Position numbers and translations under genes: made by a program
The notes under the pieces: generated by a model
Database searches by the model: none
What the model was told of the DNA's origin: nothing
Seen by the model: only the letters and a program-made list of their open reading frames with translations
Shown: one piece after another, positions 5,802 through 42,328 of the stretch
Layout of the letters: every line of letters starts with the position of its first letter
Position numbering within the stretch: the stretch's first letter is position 1
Assembly: GCA_019925105.1 (NCBI GenBank)
Contig: JAHGAU010000025.1
Coordinates: 124,001-188,000 of the forward strand
Length of the DNA stretch: 64,000 bases
Origin: Niebla homalea
Taxonomy: Eukaryota > Ascomycota > Lecanoromycetes > Lecanorales > Ramalinaceae
Reading direction: 5' to 3'

Positions 5802-7370
5802 TATATAATTTAAGTTTTAATATCTTTAATATCCAATCGTAAATCCCGAGAATAATAATTATATATTAAATTTTATCGACGTAATTTTTTAATTAAAAAA
5901 TAATTTTTATTATTTAAATAATATTTTTCCTGAAATTATTATTAATTAATTTAAATTTATATAACTTTATTAATAAAGTTATATTTAAATAATTCCTCCT
6001 TATAAAAGATCTATTAATAAAAACTATAACGGATATTTTTATATTTATAAAAAAACGTATTTTTCTAATTTTTTTAAAAAGTATTAATTTACTATTAAAG
6101 TTAAATTATTAACTTTATTTTAATTGTTCGGATGGATCAATATAATATAATAATAATTATACCGTAAAATATTAAATTTACTCTTTAAGTTAAACGATTT
6201 TTTTATATATTTAATTAAGGGGTCTTTAATTACAATTTATATTAAAGATTACTTTTTTCTGAGTTGATTGCATTAAATTAAAAGCTTTATTTTTATTTAA
6301 ATTTATTTCGTCGATTTTAAAATATTTTAATTATATTACGAGTTTATCGTTAAATAATTATTTTTTCCTTTATAAAATAAGGATTTATCCATAGTTATAT
6401 AACCTTTTTCTTTCTAAAAGAAATAATAATTATTTTTTATTAATTGCTTTATTATGTATAAAGCCCGCTTAAAAAAGTTGCGGTCAGCAGTATAGATTAT
6501 TAAAAAAAAAAAACTTTCTTATTTCTTTTTATTTACTTAAATAAGATATTTTTCTTTTTTTTCGGTTTTAAAAAGTTTATTATATATATATTTATATTAT
6601 ATTATTTTAATCGATTAACATAATCGATAAATCGTATATATATTATTTTATCTATTAATTATTATCGCAATTTATAATAAATAATTTAACGTAAATTAGA
6701 AATTTTTTATAATAAAATAAGTTATAATAAGGTAATAATTATAATATATTAAGCTAAAAACCGATTAAACGTTTTATTAAAGTTAATTATATTTATTAAG
6801 AATTTAAAATTAAAAAATAATATTTCTAACTTAATTTCTTAATTAAATTCTTGAAATAAATTTATGAAATTTATTAAAATTTCTTCGGTAATTAAGTATA
6901 AATTATTAATTTTATTTATTACTCTAAATTTAATAATTTTAAACGCGACTTTCTTATATTAATTATAAATAAATATAATTTTAAATCATTTATTAAAGAA
7001 AAAAATAGTATTTTAAGTTAGTTTTAGTTTAATCTTCAATCTTTAAATATTTTATTAATCTCGATTATTAATATTATTAAATTTATTTGGATTCAGGTAT
7101 CGGATGTTATATTTAAACGGTACGTTTTCCGTAGGGAAACGAATACGTATATTAAAGGTTATTTAACGTTTATTATTTAAGGCTTTAAATATAAAAGGAC
7201 TATTACCTTTATTATCGGATTTATTTAATAATTTATTGGTATAAGTATTTTTATTTAAACGTAAAATCTCCGTTTTCAAATGATTAACTTCTTTTATATA
7301 TTAATTAACCCGATAATAATAAATATTACGGTATTTACGGATTTTATCAATATTTTTTTTTATTATTATT

Positions 7371-10300
7371 GATTGATTGATTGATTTATATTACGGATCT
7401 AATTAAGCTAATTCCGGCGTTCCTTAATATTCGGCTATTTGATTTTACGAATAACCGTAAAAAACCCGACATCCATAACGTTAAAAATAAAAACCGGTAT
7501 TTACTTAGCCTTTACTTACGTCTTAAGGGTTAAAAGTATTTACGGTTATTTAAAGAGTAAGAATCTATTTATATATTTTTTTTAAGAAAACTTATAATAT
7601 TATAATTAAATCTATTTAAGGATTACCTTTAAACTTATTGTTCTTCCGTTATTTTACGGGTTTATTTAATATTAAAATTTTAAAATTCTGATTATATTAT
7701 TAAATATCCTTATTAATACGTATATTATTATTACCTTATTTATATAACTTTATTAACCGATATAATATCGCCTTTTATACCGTTCCGGTATTTATAGCCC
7801 TTTTAGCCCTTTATTAAGTACAGTTTTCCCGCCGCTGCTTTTTACCCCCGGGTTAATAATAAGGTTTCTTAATTAGGTTCTCGACCATTTTATTTATTTT
7901 TTTTGGCTAAACTGAATTATAATAATAAGCTTATAATTATTATAAATTTAACGGCCGCCTTAATACCCTTTTTATTAATAAGTATTTAACAATAATTATT
8001 AATCTTTACCCTTTTAATTAATCCTAGTCTACGTTCTTTAAATAATAAATAAAAGATTAATACGTATATAGCGTCCTACTTTTATTATTTATATTTATAA
8101 TTAACGTTAATCCGGTTATTAACGTATACGATAAAAAGGAAATAAGTTAAACCGTTTTTATTTATTTAAAGTTAAATTATTAACGTATTATTACCTTTCC
8201 TTATAATCCCGTAACGCCGGAAATACTTATTAATAGTTTTATCGCTATTTAATATTAAGTACCGTTACCCTTAAGGGATTGATTCTTTATATTTATGTTA
8301 GCGCTTTATCCACCTTTTTATGGTCTATAAGGTGATTACTATTAATTTCATTTCTATAACCTTTTTTTTTCCGCCGTTTTTACTTTTAATAAGAATTTAT
8401 ATACTTTTACGTTAACTTCCGGAACGTAAATTAAATTAATTTCTTTTTTAATTTATTCTAATTTGATTTTTATAGAAGAAATAAATATTTCCTTTCTACG
8501 CTTTTTTATTTAAGGTTTTTTATAATTTTAATAAATACGTTTATTTCCTATTAATATAATTAAGTTTATACCTTTTTTAAGCTTCGCTTAAGCGATTATT
8601 TAATTTAAAATTAGCTTTATTAATAATATAAAAACTTCGGATTTTGATATTAAGATAAAAGTCGCTTTATATATTTTACTTATTATTCTTAAGTATTAAT
8701 TTTGGATTTTCTATAGTTACCGGACGGGCTTTTTCCTATATTTAAGCGTACTTTTAAGTACGTATTAAATGGTTATTACGTACGTTAATATAAGCTTTAT
8801 AATCGCTTAATAAACGGTTTTAACCTTTTATAAAGTAGCTTTTTACGTTGATACCGTAAAGTAAATAAAACTTTTTCTTATAAAATTATCTTCCTTTAAA
8901 TTTTTCTTATATAATCCTTTTAATCTAATTTCTTATTAACTTATAGGTTAAATACCTTAATATTAACTTCCGGTTTTACCGTTATATTATTTAAGTTTAC
9001 TATAATTATTATATTATATAACTTTAAGTTCTTTATTATATAAATAAGCTTATATTTATATAAAATAAATTAAGTTTTATATATCTTTATTTATTATAAA
9101 TAAACTTTATAAGCTTATTTTAACTTTAAATAATTTATATAAATAAATATATTAGAAATAAAAAAATTAATATCGTTAATAATGCTTTTTACTTAAATTT
9201 TTTATTTTAACTTTATTAAATCTTTAATAAGCGGGTTATTAAAGAATAAGAATAAAATTGAGGAAATAAATAACCCTTAAAGAATCCTTATTATTACGGG
9301 CTTTATTATAGTTATTTTCTATTTTAAGTTAATTAACGTTATTTAATTATTTAAAAAACTTTCTATTTAATTTATAAGGAAAAATAAAATTTTTTTCTTC
9401 TATAAATTATATAATAACCTTTGGTAATTTATTTTATTAAACGTTTTTATAATATTTAAGGAAAAAAGATTTATAATATATTTCTTCCTATAGCCTTATA
9501 TTATATATACGTTATCGATTAAGCCTTTAAAAGTTATTTCCGTTAATTATCCTTTTTTTATCCTTATTTATTAATTAAGGAATAACTTATACTTTTCTAT
9601 ATAATTACTTAAGATTTTTATAATTACCGTTTTTAAAGTCTTTTTTAACGTATAAAAGAATATTATAGGTCTATATAACTTTACTTCTGAGTAATTTAAC
9701 TTAACCGGTTTCTTAAGGATAATTATCTTAGTTTCCTTAAATTTATAAAGGTAATATTTTATATTAAAATAAGCTTAAAATAAATAAATAAAGACCTCTT
9801 TAAATGATAACGTTATTATAAATAAAAACTTATTTAATATACCGTTAAGTCCGGGGGTTTTATCCTTTTTTAACTTATTAATCGTTATAATTATTATCTT
9901 TTAAATTATTATTTTACTTATTATTATTAATTTAAAATATATTATATTATCGATATTTATTAAGTTAACTTCCGGTAATAAAGGAAAAAACGCTTGTGTA
10001 AAAGCCTTAATTTTATTATTAAAAATATTTATTATTATACCGTTTAATCTTTTTAAAGGTAAAAACTTAAAAATAAATTTAAGTTTTTTATTTTATTCTT
10101 TATTATATTTTATTAGCTTTTAAATATTATAAAAAGAAACCATTAAGTTATATATTATAGCCCGGAAATACGTTTACTTAACTTTCTAAATAATTCTTTC
10201 CTTTTTTTTTAAGCTTCTTTTAATTATTAAAGCGTTTCCCGGTTTTTATATTTAATAGCTTACTTTATAAACGCTTTTACCTTTATAATTTTTTTTATAA

Positions 10301-31788: not shown

Positions 31789-33819
31789 TTATTTAGACAG
31801 ATTAGATTGTTTATTTCTTTTTTTATTTTTATTATCTTAATAAACTATAGTACTTAGCCTTGCTTTTTTCAACCCTTTCTAATTGAAATTTATTTAATCC
31901 AGAAGTTCTAAAAACAAACTATAATTCTGATTCTAGGCGTATAATTACGCGATGCAAACTCTCCAAAACCTTGACTCCTATTAGGCCTTTTTATTCTCTT
32001 TCTTCTTCTCGAGTAAGAGTCCCTTGAGACGATCCACCTTCGTCCGTCTAATCTTTCCCTTTCTAAGCTCCTTCCCTCTCCCCCCCCGGCCCACCTTCTT
32101 TCTTTGGCCCCTTATAGAAGAAGCCCCGGCAACGAAAAGACAAGAACATTCGCATCTTTTTGGCTGTACGTCTCCTCCGCAGCCGCTGGTTTATTAAGTC
32201 TCCCAATCTTTTATTGTTTAGACGGATTCCGGGAGTTTGTTTTTTCTCTCCCCTTGGGCCTTTGTTTATTTTACTGTAGTCGTTACTTATATTGTCGATG
32301 TTGTATTGTCGTTACCGTTCTCTAAGGATCTGAAAGGATCTGCTTCTTAATAGCGAGAGGTAATAATATTTTGAGGGAATGATCAATTGGCCTATTAAGG
32401 AGATTAATCGATTTAAGAGGTATGTCTAAGGTGTCAGTAAAGTAACCAACTTGACTTCGGGAGGAAATAAACATATATTTAAGCTTATCTGCGTCGGTCA
32501 GATTTTAATACAGGGCTTGTAATAGTATTAATAGCTTAAGCACGTATAACTACTATAGGTACTTTTGATTGTAATAACCGTTATTACTATTTATAAGGAT
32601 ATTATAAGATGCACCTCGAGGGGCTACGTCGAACTTTGCAGAGGTCCCTTAGGCTCCCGTATATCTCCTAATAATTCTATATGCGTAATTGGTCGGACGT
32701 AATCTCATCCCGTATATAATATTTGGCAAATTATAGATAGCCACGTCAGAGCTATTCACCTATATATCCAAGTAAGGAAGAGGTTAGGATAGAAGACTGG
32801 TCCATCGATACTCCCCGCCAGGCTTTACACTTACAGTAGTCCACAGCAATCGGCACCTAATATTTGCGTTATCGAGGATTGGAAGACGTTGTGATTCCCT
32901 GCCCCTTTACCGGAAGGAACAGAATTACGTTGCAGAGAAAAAATCAATCCCGCTTAAAGGGTAATGGCGTACGAGCAGAGGATCACGATACCGACCCTAG
33001 TAAAACGACCGATGATATTGCCCGACATGATTCCATGAGTCGAGGGGAAAGAGGCCTTAAAGCTAACGAATAGGCTCGGTTAAAAGAACGAAGTTCCAAG
33101 CGCCTATAATCCTAGATGGCTGCTTTAACGGCTGAGGCTAAAGCCTTCGCCTATTCCATAATTTCCTGCTTAAATTAGGTCTAATATTCAGTATTAGCCC
33201 AGTAAAGGAGTTTATCGAACTTATATAGAATCTGCCAGATTCCCGAGATACTTCTTGTATTTCCGATGAAAATAGGGCCTATCACAATCTGCAGATCCGT
33301 GCCCGCGTCAGCGTATATCGGTCAAGGAGCGGGGGAGGGAATAGGGGAAGGTGAGGAGGGAGTGGAGAGTGGAAACTTACCAAGCGATCTTTCTTTATCT
33401 TAAAAGTAACGTACGCGGACCAGTTATGGCTGTTGATACAGATGCCTGGCATTGGTATCGCACATATTCTCCGAGAGATACCCCAGACGTAAACGGGCTT
33501 GGGCGCCGTCATTTTCTGTGCTCTAACGAGCTTACGAAAATTGCGGTATTATCGGATAAGCAAACAGTTGGTTGATAGCGATGACCTAGAGCAGGCTTAA
33601 GGTGAGCTCGTCGGAGCAATCGAGGCTATACTCTACGTATGCGGCATAAGGACAGTTCAGGGTTTGGTTTTCTTCTACAACTCCAAGGTCAGCAGGAGGA
33701 GGCGCACGTGAACGTCGTGAAAACCGTCGTATTGTTAGTCGCAATTATGGCCAGAACAGGGCACCTGCTATCGTGCATGTCTACTAGTCGCTCGTGTATT
33801 TGGCCGCCAGGCCCGCGTC
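31789..33819. other. transition from AT-rich to normal DNA, no gene recognised
   Basis: Composition rises from AT-rich to balanced near 32.3 kb. A CT-rich tract with a C run lies at 32010-32100. Frames at 32104-32325 (hydrophobic, no ATG), 32864-33073 and 33351-33575 carry no recognisable domain, overlap one another on both strands, and are left uncalled. Confidence 0.4.
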
Positions 33820-34377
33820 CTACTTCGTCTGCGTCTTTTCCACCGGCTGGTCCGGGACTGTGTCGTTGGTCGTAGCCTTGAACATACGCCTGAAGACCTC
33901 CGTCTCGGCAAGCGAAATCGGGTGGTCATTCTCGCTTATGCTTACGATCTCGTTCGCGTTTACCAGAGCACCTTGGCACCAGTCCGACTTCGTGTTCGAA
34001 GGCGTTGCTGGTTCCGACTTGGTGAGTCGTTGGGGGTATACATAATAAGTCTCGTCCGAGTGTGGACTCGAGCTGGATGACCGACTCGTATTGGTATGCT
34101 CGAAATCTAACATGTGTTGGAGATCTAGTCCAGGACGGCTCCAGTCGTAACGAAGACAAGCGTCCTGACACGTAGCGCAAACCGAGTACATGTGCCCGTT
34201 GGCAGCGATATGTACGACGAGCCCGATAATGTAATTGAAGAACCCGTCTACATGCACCAAGGCGCGTGTACAGCAAATCCAACCCAGGACCATGGCCCTG
34301 CAGCCTCTATTGCAGAACATAGTCCCGCAGCATAATATCCTCGTCGCGTGCATCGCGATAGCACTTAGCGTTGTCAT
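33820..34377 (-). pseudogene. unknown Cys-rich frame in the virus-like block
   Basis: 185-codon minus frame from an ATG at 34377. The N-terminal third is Cys-rich and partly hydrophobic (ILCCGTMF, LGWICC, then FFNYIIGLVVHIAANG), followed by SVCATCQDAC, which looks like part of a metal site. The rest is Ser/Thr/Glu-rich and polar. The upstream minus frame (34300-34510, also with Cys and His: SCRHLHMIAHKYCGG) may belong to the same gene in a shifted frame. I do not recognise it. Its orientation and codon use match the RPB1-like piece, so it is probably from the same source. Treated as broken because of the frame change. Confidence 0.4.
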
Positions 34378-34511
34378 TCGGGGTATCGTTATGCGGGCCT
34401 CCGCAGTATTTGTGTGCGATCATGTGCAAGTGTCTACATGAGCTAGCGACTATATATTCGCTGCACGCCATGGACAGGCTTAGCGCACCCGAAAGCGTGT
34501 TGCTCGCGTCT

Positions 34512-34706
34512 TTATGGATGGCTGTGGTATAGAGATCGTTCGCCTAAGATGCTCGCTAGGCTCTCCGTGCTTACAATATCGGGAACCTTCTTCTCGAGAA
34601 CGACGCTACTGTGCCGTTGCTCAGAAGCTCGAGGTCGAACGTCTTTAACCGTCCACTTGCCGAGCAGGTTCGCGTGTGGTGGCGAATCGCTTTCCATCGT
34701 CACCAT
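34512..34706 (-). pseudogene. unknown short frame in the virus-like block
   Basis: 64-codon minus frame from ATG at 34706, with balanced, charged composition (GKWTVKDVRPRASEQ; KKVPDIVSTESLASILGERS) typical of real protein rather than an antisense shadow. After its stop at 34512 the coding look continues in another frame to about 34.30 kb, so it is likely one exon-less gene broken by indels. No family is recognised. Confidence 0.35.
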
Positions 34707-34710
34707 GACT

Positions 34711-35108
34711 CTACCCGATTTGTTCCTCTGATCGACTTACGACGTGAGCACGCTGATTGCTCGTGCTTAGACAGCTCGTAGTCGATGGCGCACGTAAGCG
34801 ACACTCGCACTTAACGATGGCGCGCGTATAACTTGACAGACCCGTCGCGCTGTTCTCGGAACTATTGCTCATGTTCGTCGACGAATACGAGTAGGTGCTG
34901 TACGAGCTCTTCTCGTCGCAATCATGCCATAACGCCGACAGCACCACGGCGTTCATGTAGAGATGGTATGTATTCCAACGAGCTAGCAACGAATCGCTAT
35001 TCGTGCACGCGATTGTCGGCTGTTGGTGACGTTTTGCAACTCGGGCTCCCTAGGTCGCATCGCTCTCTGCCGCATCTCATACCCGGTCCCCGCCTCCTTT
35101 CCACTCAT
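34711..35108 (-). pseudogene. unknown Ser/Tyr-rich frame, possible gene start
   Basis: A minus-strand ATG at 35106-35108 opens about 40 polar codons (MSGKEAGTGYEMRQRAM..). A shift near 34.99 kb leads into a 92-codon frame (34711-34989) with a Ser/Tyr/Asn-rich segment (SSYSTYSYSSTNMSNSS) and IVKCECRLR. Overlap with the next frame at 34706 is a few bases. It may be the beginning of the gene whose rest is seen at 34.5 and 33.8 kb. No function is proposed. Confidence 0.33.
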
Positions 35109-35206
35109 TGTTCACCGGAGTGCCTCTAGCTCACTCGCGTTTTCCTGACCCAGGCGATCGCGCCTCGTTGACGGCTCTGCCCACTCGATCTCAGCCGAGA
35201 AGTGCA

Positions 35207-36560
35207 CTAGAAGAACGAGCCTGACTCGTAGGTAGACGCGTACACTTTCGGCATGACCCTGACGCGTACGCTTGTCCTGTACGATGTCGTGGTCGAGAGG
35301 CTAGCGCTGCCCCACGACATGTAGTCCCTGTCGATCCGCACGAATGGGACGCATCCATCTATGATGGCGGTCAGGCTGTACGTCATGCTAGGAGGCGGGC
35401 ATATCTTCAAGTCGTAGAACTTGGTCTCAGGCATGCACGCGTTGCAGACGGCGAGCCATATGCCATTCTTGATGGCGCTCTTGCTGAGAAGCCACTCGCT
35501 TATCGCATGATTGGTTCTCTCGTGAGCGTGGTCGTAGTGGTATTGGTAGTCGCATTTCCAAAACGACCGTTTATCTGACAGGGTGCAGTACGGACGCGTT
35601 CCAGCAGCTACGATCAGGTACTTGAGACCACTCCTGGTTGCCGTATTCATCATCCTGGTGTAAGGCACCACTAGCAATATGTAGAGCGTATCCAACCAGT
35701 CGTTCTCCCTGGCGTACTTGAGTGGGGTCGCAAGCCTCTTCGCGAGGAGCCTGAGATCGTCGCGGAACAGCATAGTGATGTAGCCTATCGACTTGGCTAC
35801 TGCCAGTGCATCGTGTGACTGGAACACCTCCCTGGTCACGTCGCGCATAATACGCGTCTCCCTTGAGGTGGATCCTCATGATTGCTAGAACAGACTCAAC
35901 TCCGAGCACGTGAGCAAATTCGTGAGAACGAGTCTCCCCGGGTACGCATGTTCCATAACGTATCGATTGTCGAGAACGCGTTGCTCACTGTCTGCGCGTT
36001 GAGAGTCAGTCATCCCGTCGTACTCGAAGTTCGTCGAGCTCGTTGAGTCCGGGTTCTCGCTACACCGATCCTGCACGTTATACGCGAGTAGGGCGTTGTC
36101 GATCCCCTGCGCGCGCGCGGGTACTCGTCGATGAACCAACCTACTAGCCAGGCGTGCGGCATCGTGACCTCGATCACACGCAAGCTGCAAGCTGCATTCG
36201 CACGCGTATCGAGAATATATCCGAGACGAGGATGACGTAGAACATGGTCACGGCTAGCCAGCCGGCTATGCCCTCCCTCTCGAGGAAGTTCCCAAGGTCA
36301 ACGAGGGTCTATTGGTGTTAAGGCGCGTCATGAAGCAGTACGCCAGCTCCGACGGGAAAACCATGACGTCCAGGAGTACGCTGAGTTGATCCCGGACGAG
36401 CCCCCCAAGCCAAATGATACTGAGATCGTCAGAGGTGTATGCCAACGCGGGCTCGCTGACAATTCTACAACAACCACGCGGTGTGCGAGGCGAGGAGGCG
36501 AGGTCGTATACGATAAACAAGAGCTTCTGGAAGAGCATGTACCCTCCCCTAGAGTCGATA
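35207..36560 (-). pseudogene. RPB1-like largest RNA polymerase subunit, C-terminal part, frameshifted
   Basis: Read 5' to 3' on the minus strand, blocks appear in the order of the RPB1 C-terminal half. SEPALAYT (around 36446-36460) matches the trigger-loop GEPATQMT region. A VFPSEL..RPSLTL segment (36293-36360) matches GVPRLKE..TPSLTV. GIDNALLAYN (around 36080-36106) matches the G-V/I-E-N segment. HVLGVESVLAIM (35876-35912) matches VLGIEA-RA. SHDALAVAKSIGYITMLF (35765-35818), then ATPLKYARENDW, match the RHMALLVDVMT..G and the later FEE region. A final RSGLKYLIVAAGT part corresponds to the last conserved strand. At least three frame changes and a stop break the gene. Everything before the trigger loop, including the NADFDGD catalytic site, is absent. 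A non-conserved tail runs to the TAG at 35207. In a virus this subunit would transcribe genes with RPB2. The match is by motif order only. Confidence 0.62.
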
Positions 36561-36589
36561 GAATGCGAGTACGGGTTGTACGGTCAAAC

Positions 36590-38144
36590 ATCGACGAACG
36601 AATCCCGAAGAGCGAGCACGAGGGTTCCCTGAACCTGTGCTACACGCCGAGCTCGAAGGCCACGGGCAAGGTCAGGTGCCTTGTTGCCGGAACGGCTATA
36701 CGTATAACAACGAGCGAGGCAATCCAGGTCACATACGAAATACTTCCGTCCTCGCTGAGGTCTTCGGCACGCCCGTGAGGTCCTGGATCGTGAGGTGTAT
36801 GGGGTTCTGCTGCAGGGCGTCTGCAGATGAAGTCTGGGAAATGGTGAGGGTCTGGAAGACGACCTGCAGTCCGGACGCGCCGACCATGTACGTGTTCGAG
36901 CGAGCCAAGGTCGCGGTCGTATCCATGTCGACGGGCGTACTCACGAGGCCAGTCAGGCTCAGGGTAGCCTCCGGGAAGTTCGTACCCGAGGGGCCGTTCG
37001 TAGACTCGGTGGTCGTGCACAGGTGCGACACGCTCTTGTTCTTGGACAAATCGGTCCCAGCCGAGAGGGACGAGCCAGACCAGTACTTCAACGTGGGCGT
37101 ATTGACGCTACCCTTCGGGGCATGGACCACGGACCCCAGGCTTAACCTGGGGCTCCAGATGCCCAACCCTGATCAAGGGCGACGTGACCATGACGACCGT
37201 GGGCGAGAACGAGCCTCTGGTCATGACTAGCATAATGGACGCGATTATGAAGCTGACAGTGCGCACAGGCCTATACGACGATGTCACGATAAGCTTGCCC
37301 AGGAAGAATGTCGTCGTCGCGTTCGTAAACAGACACCTCAACACCGAGGACGCCTGCTCCGTATCCTAGGAGTGGGCCGACTCGGGCGCTCTGGTGTGAT
37401 CTGCGTACATCAAGTACCCCCTTCCCGAGCGATGTGAGCTACGTCAAGCCCAGGATGAAGCTCATGAAGCAACAGTGGTGGAAGCCAGCCATCGAGGGAA
37501 CGATCGTAGGGGTCAGGACCAGTAAGGTGGGGGACCCATATATCGTTGCGTATATATGAGCTCGACTAAAGCTGAAGTCGGAGACAAGTTCGCTAACGAC
37601 CAAAAGCATAAATATACGATCGGCGAGAAGGTCCCGTATAAGGACATGATCGACGTGTTCGACGAGGCCAGCGGGGAGTGGTTCAAGCCTAACATGCTAC
37701 TGTCGACGAAGAACCTGACCAGGGGCCTGGGTGGCACGATCAGGCAGATAGCGGCAGGTACGAGCCTCGAGTCCATCAAGTCGTCCAGGGCGATGGACAA
37801 GCCCATGAGCAAGCGTGTATGCCCGCCCCTTCGACGAGCAGAAGGAGGTTGTTCCCAGGCTCCCTAGCGTGCTGGTCTCGTACAAGGGGAAGGAGCTCGT
37901 CATCAAGGAGACGAACAGGGAGCTCAGGAGGGTGAAGGCCTCACACGGGATCATGAGGGTGTTGCAGCTCAGGCAAGTCGCCTCAGTCAAGCACCACTAC
38001 GCCTCCATAACGTTCTCCTCGCTGACGATCCCGAGAGGGAGGTTCAGGCAGGGTACGCCCAGAGTGGGGGAGGGTGAGTTGCTCGCGATGATGATGCAGG
38101 GTATGATGGCCAAACAAGATGTTGGCCAGGAATACTCGGGTTGA
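36590..38144 (+). pseudogene. RPB2-like second-largest RNA polymerase subunit, C-terminal half, frameshifted
   Basis: Plus-strand blocks follow RPB2 order. EGSLNLCYTP and a VRCLVAGTAI segment (36620-36700) match the fork region. TGVLTRPVRLRV (36931-36966) matches the GRV-RPL strand. VGVLTLPFGAWTTDPRLN (37093-37146) matches the ILG..PF..HNQSPRN block. HLNTEDACSVS then a TAG (37367-37369) then EWADSGAL matches GYNQEDS..N-SSIDRG. EVGDKFANDQKHKYTIGEK (37577-37633) matches IGDKF-SRHGQKGTIG. PRGRFRQGTPRVGEGE (38031-38078) matches QP-EGRSRDGG-R-GEME. Frame changes occur near 36.75, 37.17, 37.4, 37.55 and 37.81 kb. The N-terminal half and the final zinc-binding clamp are missing. Several near-invariant residues are replaced, so the source was divergent or already relaxed. 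Antisense frames here are shadows. Confidence 0.72.
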
Positions 38145-38157
38145 CTGAAAAAGTCAA
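38141..38157. terminator. small hairpin at the end of the RPB2-like frame
   Basis: TTGACT, loop GAAAA, AGTCAA. The stop TGA (38142-38144) lies in the first arm. Large DNA viruses can end transcripts at hairpins, so it may be an ancestral 3'-end signal, but a 6-bp stem could be chance. It also marks where viral-like coding ends. Confidence 0.3.
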
Positions 38158-40780: not shown

Positions 40781-41131
40781 TCAGAGAAAGAACATTCGTT
40801 GGGGCCGGTGGATGTAGGTGCAATTAGCACAAGCACCTCCAGCCACTCCAGTCACCCGTTTGCAAGTTGGGAAAAGAAAAACTTTGCACCTATCGCAGCA
40901 AGGCTGGCATACTCCGCCGGCTCCTTGGATTCGGAGAACTTGTAGTTCCTGCATATGGCTGGCCTTAAAGTCGTCGATATCGCGAGGACCCTGAGCGTGC
41001 ATACTGAGCAGAAAGCTCTGCTGTCCACTTGAAGGGATACGATCAGGTCTGCTCGGACGACTATCAAGTTGGGCGATATTAACCTTTAAACTGTGACTGA
41101 TTGATTCATATTCGACAAACTCTGAAGACAT
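40781..41131 (-). CDS. small Cys-rich protein resembling fungal DUF3716 proteins
   Basis: A true ATG at 41131 opens 116 codons on the minus strand to a stop at 40781. The first about 70 residues are polar (MSSEFVEYESISHSLKVN..). The C-terminus has a Cys cluster: C-x2-CC-x2-C, FPTCKRV, then GACANCTY. That spacing, with the GACxNCxY signature, resembles the Cys-rich domain of short fungal proteins grouped as DUF3716, whose function is unknown. The expected last Cys after the HRPQR segment is missing and the frame ends soon after, so it may be truncated. It overlaps no better plus-strand frame. Assignment is from motif memory only. Confidence 0.4.
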   Translation of the reverse strand: MSSEFVEYESISHSLKVNIAQLDSRPSRPDRIPSSGQQSFLLSMHAQGPRDIDDFKASHMQELQVLRIQGAGGVCQPCCDRCKVFLFPTCKRVTGVAGGACANCTYIHRPQRMFFL

Positions 41132-41176
41132 GAGGTAGGCAATCGTTGCTCAGAGAGAAGAGCTAGAGACAAGAAA

Positions 41177-41640
41177 GTGGGATACAGTCAAGGGAGAGAA
41201 ACTTCGGTGGTGAGAGAGAGTCGGTTTCATCGTGGGCCCGGCTGGTGGCCGAGACGCCCCCACTTGCGTGACTACGAGAACGGCAGCATCGAACGCTACT
41301 CCATGCATCCCGTGGTGCACGACTGGTGCGCAGAAACGATCGGCCTTGGCCAGGACGAGGGAAGGGTGACAGCGCTGACGATCGTCGGTGATGCAGTGCC
41401 CGATCAGTTCGGGAGCGGAATATTCGATCCTCCAGCAGCGGTTGCTCCCCATATAGACCGAGTTGCAAGGGATATTCGGGATGTCGATCTGCTGAAGAGC
41501 AGTGCGGCCGCGGAGACTTGTCATGCTTTCCACAATCTGGGCGACCTTTACGCGGATCAAAGGTAAGCATGGCGGGGCGGAGCAGATGTATCGACGGGCG
41601 CTGGATGGAAAGGAGAAAGCATGGGGGCCCCGATCATGAT
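41177..41640 (+). pseudogene. NLR-type (NACHT/NB-ARC) protein relic: linker and first TPR
   Basis: The plus strand reads YSMHPVVHDWC, the signature that follows the nucleotide-binding domain in fungal NLR proteins. Then come an ALTIVGDAVP helix, a short out-of-frame stretch in which EYSILQQRLLP is readable in another frame (about 41415-41450), then PHIDRVARDI, and a tetratricopeptide start (CHAFHNLGDLYADQ). A shift at about 41563 continues the TPR as AEQMYRRALDGKEKAWGP, ending near 41640. Two indels thus compensate inside the gene and a third breaks the repeat. The nucleotide-binding domain and further TPRs are missing. Such proteins act in fungal self/non-self recognition; this copy is a fragment. 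Minus frames here are shadows. Confidence 0.68.
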
Positions 41641-42328
41641 AAGGGCCGTGGATGAAGATGATGCTGCGCTTCCCAGAAAGACTATGCGAACGAAAGTATT
41701 TCTGTTGGGTAAGCGGAAAGTGATCAGCTATTGTGGTAGAATTTGTTGGAGGGTGGTCGTCGTCGTTGTTCATATATGACCATCGTGGATGAGGTTGATG
41801 CTAACGCGGGCCCTAAGAAAGGGATCACGGAGGATGGTCGGATGGGTTTAACTCGTAGCCAGAACCTGCCGGGCGTTCACTGGAGTATAAAAGCGATGGG
41901 GCAACGATCCGGGGACACTTTGATCTTCACCTCCGTGGCATAGTTCTCGGGTGATCAATGCAGATACTGCTCCAAAGAAAAAGGTATCTAACAGAGGTTC
42001 GCCAATACACATAGTGGTGTAAGGAAGAAGCCTGCCGTTGGATGTTGACAGGCTGCAAGGCGTGCTATACGGAGGTTCGGAAAATTGCAACCTGACACCT
42101 GAGGCATCGACGTAGAAAGTCCCACTGCACAATCATCCAAGTGATGGTGATGACGAGAAACGGTAGAACCCGCCACATACCCGGTCCTGCTTGCGTGGTA
42201 CGGAAGAACAACCACTCCGTTGAAAGGTGTAGCAGCGCTATAATATATATGGCAAGGCTAAGGATATACATAACACGATCATCGATATTGTAGGTAGCGG
42301 ATAGGCGTATAAGGCTCGCTAGGGCGTT
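41641..42328. other. normal-composition DNA, no supportable gene
   Basis: Overlapping frames at 41743-41943 (plus) and 41848-42271 (minus) show no domain. Possibly further debris of the NLR gene, but no TPR is readable. Confidence 0.4.

Follow-up and report, generated by a model that had tools for sequence, protein, structure and literature searches.

The stretch between 35 and 38 kb of the window raises the question of whether a fungal chromosome carries the remains of a foreign RNA polymerase and, if so, from what kind of element they came. The window, that is, the whole 64,000-nt stretch of DNA that was analysed, corresponds to G000:C25:124001-188000 in a genome of 50.6 Mb and 52 contigs. 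A preliminary description had proposed that genes for the two large polymerase subunits, RPB1 and RPB2, lie here head to head, likely as a remnant of a giant virus or of a similar extrachromosomal element.

The G+C content at 34-38 kb of the window is 53-58%. Both flanks of the locus resemble other contigs: on the left, 33149-33454 is similar to C30:137533 (68%) and, on the right, 41287-41629 is similar to C1:427463 (75%). The relic block is therefore confined to ~33.5-38.15 kb. Comparison of 33800-38150 with phage records by megablast gave no match. A frame at 41126-41800, which overlaps the similarity on the right, showed a weak likeness to fungal TPR repeats (E 0.092, below the cut-off); its similarity to repeated sequence on C1 (near 427463-428173) is 75%, and it is possibly a scrap of an NLR-type gene. 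The window as a whole has an extreme isochore structure, with segments at 2-14, 25-29, 45-50 and 54-59 kb, mostly of 14-28% G+C, alternating with blocks of ~30-58%; long open frames are few in the low-G+C blocks.

A frame-broken RPB2-like gene on the plus strand

We compared the plus strand with an RPB2 profile built from three nuclear sequences and 26 from IMG/VR, the latter being what was left of 44 ORFs once near-copies had been dropped. Four pieces of the window aligned with this profile in colinear order by hhalign (Table 1), and the metagenomic protein P0001, described below, fell into line with them at columns 1020-1104 (E 1.7e-5). These E-values are pairwise and individually modest, from 0.2 to 1.7e-5. 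As a control, 11 comparisons were made with the reversed RPB2 profile, the best of which had E 0.11. When the first, smaller profiles were used, one reversed RPB1 profile reached E 0.0012 and piece w37106 was misplaced on RPB2, so that single E-values near that size are untrustworthy alone. The frame-tolerant score of 36200-38150 (plus strand) against RPB2 was 28.0, compared with 17.8 ± 1.7 for column-permuted profiles, none of 200 of which scored as high; in a second test of the RPB2 stretch, none of 300 permuted profiles reached its score. A single-frame Pfam search with 19 pieces yielded PF00562 as the sole RPB match, below the cut-off (E 0.13), a PHROGs search with 10 pieces returned nothing convincing, and a PDB search with 37526-37864 gave no match.

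The intervals between the blocks RPL, SPRN, QED, GDKF and GEME measure 62, 70, 79 and 162 aa in the window. In the 28 references with all five motifs, the corresponding distances are 59-142, 56-74 (two rows longer), 110-183 and 153-222 aa (eight rows longer), and three of the four intervals of the relic (62, 70 and 162 aa) are thus typical of RPB2. The remaining one, QED to GDKF, spans at least 110 aa in 28 of the 29 references carrying the motifs. From RPL to GEME the relic takes 374 aa, against at least 397 in the 28 references. Hand reading also located a PLxxT-like block between the SPRN-like and NQED-like blocks.

Signs of decay run through the whole stretch. At least three frame changes separate the best-supported blocks, and stops interrupt them as well. 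Two window frames join at 36745, where a second copy of the gene, found elsewhere in the genome, continues in a single frame, and the C-terminal frame halts at a stop (38144) upstream of a zinc-ribbon-like stretch present in that copy and in P0001. These comparisons confirmed 36617-38144 on the plus strand as a real, frame-broken relic of an RPB2-like (second-largest) RNA polymerase subunit. The order of RPB2 blocks given in the preliminary description held up in the colinear alignments, both permutation tests, the second copy and P0001, but its fork block at ~36.5 kb did not: piece 36390-36629 (plus strand) aligned best elsewhere in the profile, and 36236-36616 found no support from it.

Table 1. 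Features of the relic block, in window coordinates (aa, amino acids; columns, those of the RPB2 profile; L012, locus of the second copy)
Feature	Position	Strand	Basis and remarks
RPB2-like relic, middle part	36617..37029	+	Ends in GRxxRPL-like block (36946); two frames meeting at 36745; tblastn to L012 7232-7360 (60% aa, E 1.9e-13) and 7361-7645 (54%, E 2.6e-36); hhalign of piece 36562-37227 to columns 498-612, E 0.2
RPB2-like relic, SPRN-like (37132) and NQED-like (37343) blocks	37030..37366	+	tblastn to L012 7678-7957; hhalign of piece w37106 to columns 733-773, E 0.017; motif spacing
RPB2-like relic, GDKF block (37580) and stretch after it	37526..37867	+	hhalign to columns 902-937, E 2.3e-5; tblastn to L012 8093-8368, 46% aa, E 4.6e-23
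RPB2-like relic, C-terminal part, GR..GG.R.GEME-like block (38067)	37809..38144	+	tblastn to L012 8430-8660, 62% aa, E 4.1e-29; P0001, 70% identity over 54% of the piece; hhalign to columns 998-1077, E 0.008
Possible upstream part of the RPB2-like gene	36236..36616	+	Fork region by hand reading only; weak codon signal
Relic open frame, 222 aa, second gene (named RPB1 in the preliminary description)	35210..35875	−	GC3 periodicity; codon style of the RPB2 relic
Possible further relic frame, 199 aa	33823..34419	−	GC3 phase; codon score 10-15 only at 33750-33974, negative over the rest

A second copy and a metagenomic relative

Searching the fungus's own genome at the DNA level uncovered a second copy of the relic at 7232-8890 of locus L012 (G000:C7:1868001-1878000), colinear with that of the window at 66-81% identity; at the protein level, window pieces matched it with E-values down to 2.6e-36 (tblastn). 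This copy is broken as well, its blocks lying in differing frames with an in-frame stop at the SPRN-like block. Two of its pieces, 8412 and 8618, fell in the right place on the RPB2 profile (E 0.13 and 0.057, hhalign), while its 406-aa frame was misplaced (columns 452-473, E 0.34); taken alone, the copy did not beat permuted profiles, 55 of 300 of which reached its score. With the 406-aa frame as query, none of 5965 candidates in a protein search had E <= 10, and the PDB returned one weak, unrelated match.

We then compared the two copies codon by codon over four gap-free blocks (271 codons). Identical nucleotides numbered 177, 206 and 117 at codon positions 1, 2 and 3 (65, 76 and 43%), and 21 of 76 fourfold sites were identical. 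The NG86 estimates were dN 0.36 and dS 2.1, the latter being rough because third positions are near saturation. This is the pattern of two copies that would have diverged as working genes, under purifying selection, before they decayed, and not that of two dead copies of one insert. Divergence as working genes therefore argues that related elements were captured on separate occasions, although two long-lived host paralogues would show the same pattern.

A two-row alignment of the C-terminal pieces, searched against 5.8 billion proteins, recovered a single protein among 182 candidates (E 1.5e-24, 70% identity over 54% of the query). This protein, P0001, is an open frame of 138 aa on one 1305-base JGI metagenome contig and covers the C-terminal part only. 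Its best match among 177,635 PDB sequences was Rpo2 (RNA polymerase subunit B), presumably archaeal, at the matching C-terminal place (E 0.17); a PDB search with the three-row profile A4 gave no match. P0001 aligns into the C-terminal zinc ribbon of RPB2, the region whose frame is lost in the window copy, and keeps the cysteine pattern C..C...C.C; a cysteine pattern is also present in L012 8618-8887. The AlphaFold model of P0001 is poor (mean pLDDT 50), and neither Foldseek nor VIA, queried with it, listed a usable match.

At L012 the RPB2 frame ends in a stop at 8888-8890 and a convergent minus-strand frame in a stop at 8877-8879, a tail-to-tail overlap of 14 bases such as might be found in a compact genome. 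The convergent frame (8880-9347, 156 aa) is coding-like, with a codon score of 29.3, and probably came from the same element as another of its genes. It gave no Pfam match (scanned as 8877-9347), no relative in the PDB, the fungus's own genome or IMG/VR, and no match to the minus-strand frames of the window. We did not accept it as an inverted N-terminal half of RPB2, an idea that arose from a hand-read string: 7 of 300 permuted profiles scored as high for RPB2 columns 1-330, and 56 of 300 for the whole profile.

Minus-strand frames and the RPB1 reading

The open frame at 35210-35875 does look like a former gene, to judge from its codon usage. Its codon-style score peaks at 14.0 at 35700-35849; some windows are negative, and the complementary frame also scores in part. 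This frame gave no Pfam match, no PDB match and no relative among 201 candidates from 5.8 billion proteins, and its structure model has a mean pLDDT of 34. The frame at 33823-34419 likewise gave no Pfam match.

The preliminary description had read conserved RPB1 blocks on this strand, in order. The named strings are present, scattered over several minus-strand frames. We compared them with two RPB1 profiles, each of three nuclear sequences and 13 IMG/VR ORFs. The frame with the VLGVES string aligned at the GIEA place of RPB1 on both (E 0.032 and 0.074), values within the range of the reversed-profile control. Among column-permuted profiles, 169 of 200 scored as high as the real one or higher with the minus-strand pieces; by part, the counts were 24 of 300 for columns 1050-1260 and 74 of 300 for columns 880-1260. 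The match at the GIEA place keeps the idea alive but proves nothing, and chance is sufficient to explain the motif strings. We thus set aside the RPB1 reading of 35207-36583 (minus strand), which drew no support from six-frame hmmsearch, hhalign, permutation, the PDB or the 5.8-billion-protein search; the head-to-head polymerase pair is therefore unsupported as well.

Elsewhere in the genome, a PF04998 match at C6:134426 was considered as a part of the polymerase relic and rejected; it looks like a fragment of an ordinary nuclear RPB1, because its motif is identical to that in the protein of locus L008. The surrounding locus (L014 5420-5776) holds a 29-residue RNA_pol_Rpb1_5 fragment (E 7.7e-10) that runs into unrelated sequence and looks like a partial copy of a nuclear gene.

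Origin of the relics

A search of the genome with RNA_pol_Rpb2_6 found three RPB2 loci, all of them open frames of >1200 aa, and neither relic copy was among them. The best match of the genome's Pol II RPB2 was to yeast Pol II structures, the top one of which we take to be a fission yeast entry. In a tree of the C-terminal region, the window and L012 copies joined (98/91) with P0001 beside them. The three grouped together (100/100) on a branch 3.7 long, apart from the 29 other RPB2s (three nuclear and 26 from IMG/VR), a separation for which the program warns of long branches meeting. The same meeting of long branches bears on the finding that the clade lay inside no group of the 26 IMG/VR rows, taken together as one set. 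Over this region, P0001 shares ~22% identity with every one of the nuclear subunits and 13-22% with the IMG/VR RPB2s. The proposal of a foreign, very divergent RPB2 was thus borne out, in that the relic is not one of the three nuclear loci and stands outside the three nuclear rows of this tree, subject to the long-branch warning. What these comparisons show in the window is a dead RPB2-like gene whose lineage is remote from the RNA polymerases of the fungus itself; the other dead copy, which diverged separately, lies on a different contig. Both relics are taken, from sequence alone, to be inactive now.

We put a probability of roughly 0.7 on the reading that they are scraps of an unclassified extrachromosomal dsDNA element, either a virus or a cytoplasmic plasmid, which had its own compact multisubunit RNA polymerase and was captured at least twice. 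Going by what is known of the family, the RPB2 of such an element, with an RPB1 partner, would have transcribed the element's genes independently of host Pol II; the RPB2 protein would have supplied that enzyme with its hybrid-binding and C-terminal part. Pieces of element DNA would have been joined into chromosomes on at least two occasions, probably through end-joining repair, and the captured genes, freed from selection, would have decayed by frameshifts and stops. We hold more tentatively, leaning somewhat against it, a bolder version: that a lineage of fungal dsDNA viruses or cytoplasmic plasmids is still alive, as P0001 would suggest, with a compact, extremely divergent polymerase, outside both Nucleocytoviricota and the known yeast linear plasmids, and that it entered chromosomes at least twice.

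No hallmark gene of a virus (capsid, viral DNA polymerase or other) was found. The search for the double jelly-roll capsid (PF04451) had no match in this genome, and its control likewise matched in none of 14 genomes. A DNA polymerase B search of the genome gave seven matches at four loci, nothing among them callable as viral; we take all seven to be nuclear polymerases. Scans of IMG/VR found no relative of the relic or of the L012 neighbour gene.

Giant viruses encode RPB1 and RPB2. A remnant of such a virus, with both subunits head to head, was the origin first suggested for the locus. In its favour, polymerase subunits of this type are virally encoded, the minus-strand ORF shares the coding style of the RPB2 relic, and there is a precedent in Rhizophagus irregularis, for which PMC10640383 describes a 1.5-Mb giant-virus region with large and small RNA polymerase subunits. 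That region and the relic are alike in placing DNA for a foreign RNA polymerase subunit in a fungal chromosome; the relic differs from it in amounting to a few kb only, in two diverged scraps, with no capsid or other marker found and no grouping with the 26 IMG/VR RPB2s. The RPB1 half is moreover unsupported, the relic lacks an IMG/VR relative, the IMG/VR RPB2s share only 13-22% with P0001, and the capsid search was empty, its control being silent as well. With a long branch that cannot be placed with giant viruses, a Nucleocytoviricota origin is possible but unproven, and we regard the head-to-head remnant as doubtful.

Less probable still is an origin from a linear cytoplasmic plasmid like the killer plasmids of yeast (virus-like elements), a piece of which would have integrated into the nuclear genome. 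Nuclear fragments of linear plasmids have precedent under the name of NUPAVs (PMC8472843), and in yeast virus-like elements the beta part retains nearly all conserved regions at shorter spacing (PMC6211774); the relic, too, is compact from RPL to GEME. The pGKL-type elements and NUPAVs share with the relic a fungal host, a compact beta part and integrated nuclear scraps, and they have a multisubunit polymerase of their own, as is proposed for the source of the relic. Against this reading, the large subunit of those elements is a beta-beta' fusion (PMC6211774), whereas the L012 RPB2 frame is unfused, stopping after the zinc-ribbon-like stretch and overlapping a convergent frame, and the window frame stops at 38144. 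Their A+T content of >75% (PMC4431711) also contrasts with a relic of 53-58% G+C, although composition may drift after capture. The known killer-plasmid type thus fits poorly: compactness agrees, fusion and base composition disagree.

Alternatively, the fungus could have had a nuclear RPB2 paralogue of fast evolution, of which the relics would be pseudogenes and not foreign DNA at all; we consider this improbable. A pair of paralogues could account for a genome that holds two copies with divergence under purifying selection, and the nuclear RPB2, RPA2 and RPC2 subunits, encoded at the three loci found here, have the C-terminal-half blocks in the same order as the relic, with near-equal SPRN-QED (71 against 70 aa) and GDKF-GEME (154-158 against 162 aa) spacing. 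Their QED-GDKF interval, however, is 142-149 aa, against 79 in a relic that is frame-broken and lies apart in the tree. The family search yielded three other loci and not the relics, P0001 at ~22% is no closer to any nuclear subunit than to the nearest IMG/VR RPB2s, and the L012 copy overlaps its neighbour gene tail to tail. Finally, the idea that short motif-like strings arose by chance in random frames, to which the unconvincing single-frame Pfam and PHROGs searches might lend colour, is already refuted for the RPB2 part and carries a negligible probability, given that none of 200 and none of 300 permuted profiles reached the score, that the second copy is colinear and shows a surplus of third-position change, and that an independent relative exists in a metagenome.

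An element captured at least twice would be of interest because, as of 2023, no dsDNA virus infecting fungi was known, according to PMC10640383. Among open-licence PMC papers, no title or opening of an abstract reported an RPB2 relic of this kind. A dead polymerase subunit of apparently foreign origin, whose two copies diverged while still functional, would be fossil evidence that such elements, equipped for their own transcription, repeatedly reached the lineage of this fungus. The two relics and P0001 offer a probe for a living element, and with their branch a deep-lying, compact RPB2 enters the debate on the relationships among the RNA polymerases of viruses, plasmids and cells. What makes the locus noteworthy is that its two copies diverged separately and that a relative occurs in a metagenome; its small size and the missing hallmark genes set limits to this.

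The surroundings of the second copy hold two further features. A dispersed motif near ACGGTCGCATT occurs on both sides of the L012 insert; a ~31-base CTACGGTCGCATTTC-like motif lies at L012 3265, 6503, 6813, 7121, 9569 and 9833, again on both sides of the relic and in places at a spacing of ~260-310 bases. About 14-15 kb from the L012 relic, on the same contig, an uninterrupted 389-aa frame (L015 1556-2722, minus strand, G000:C7) carries a Spo11/topoisomerase VI A Toprim domain (E 6.5e-19).
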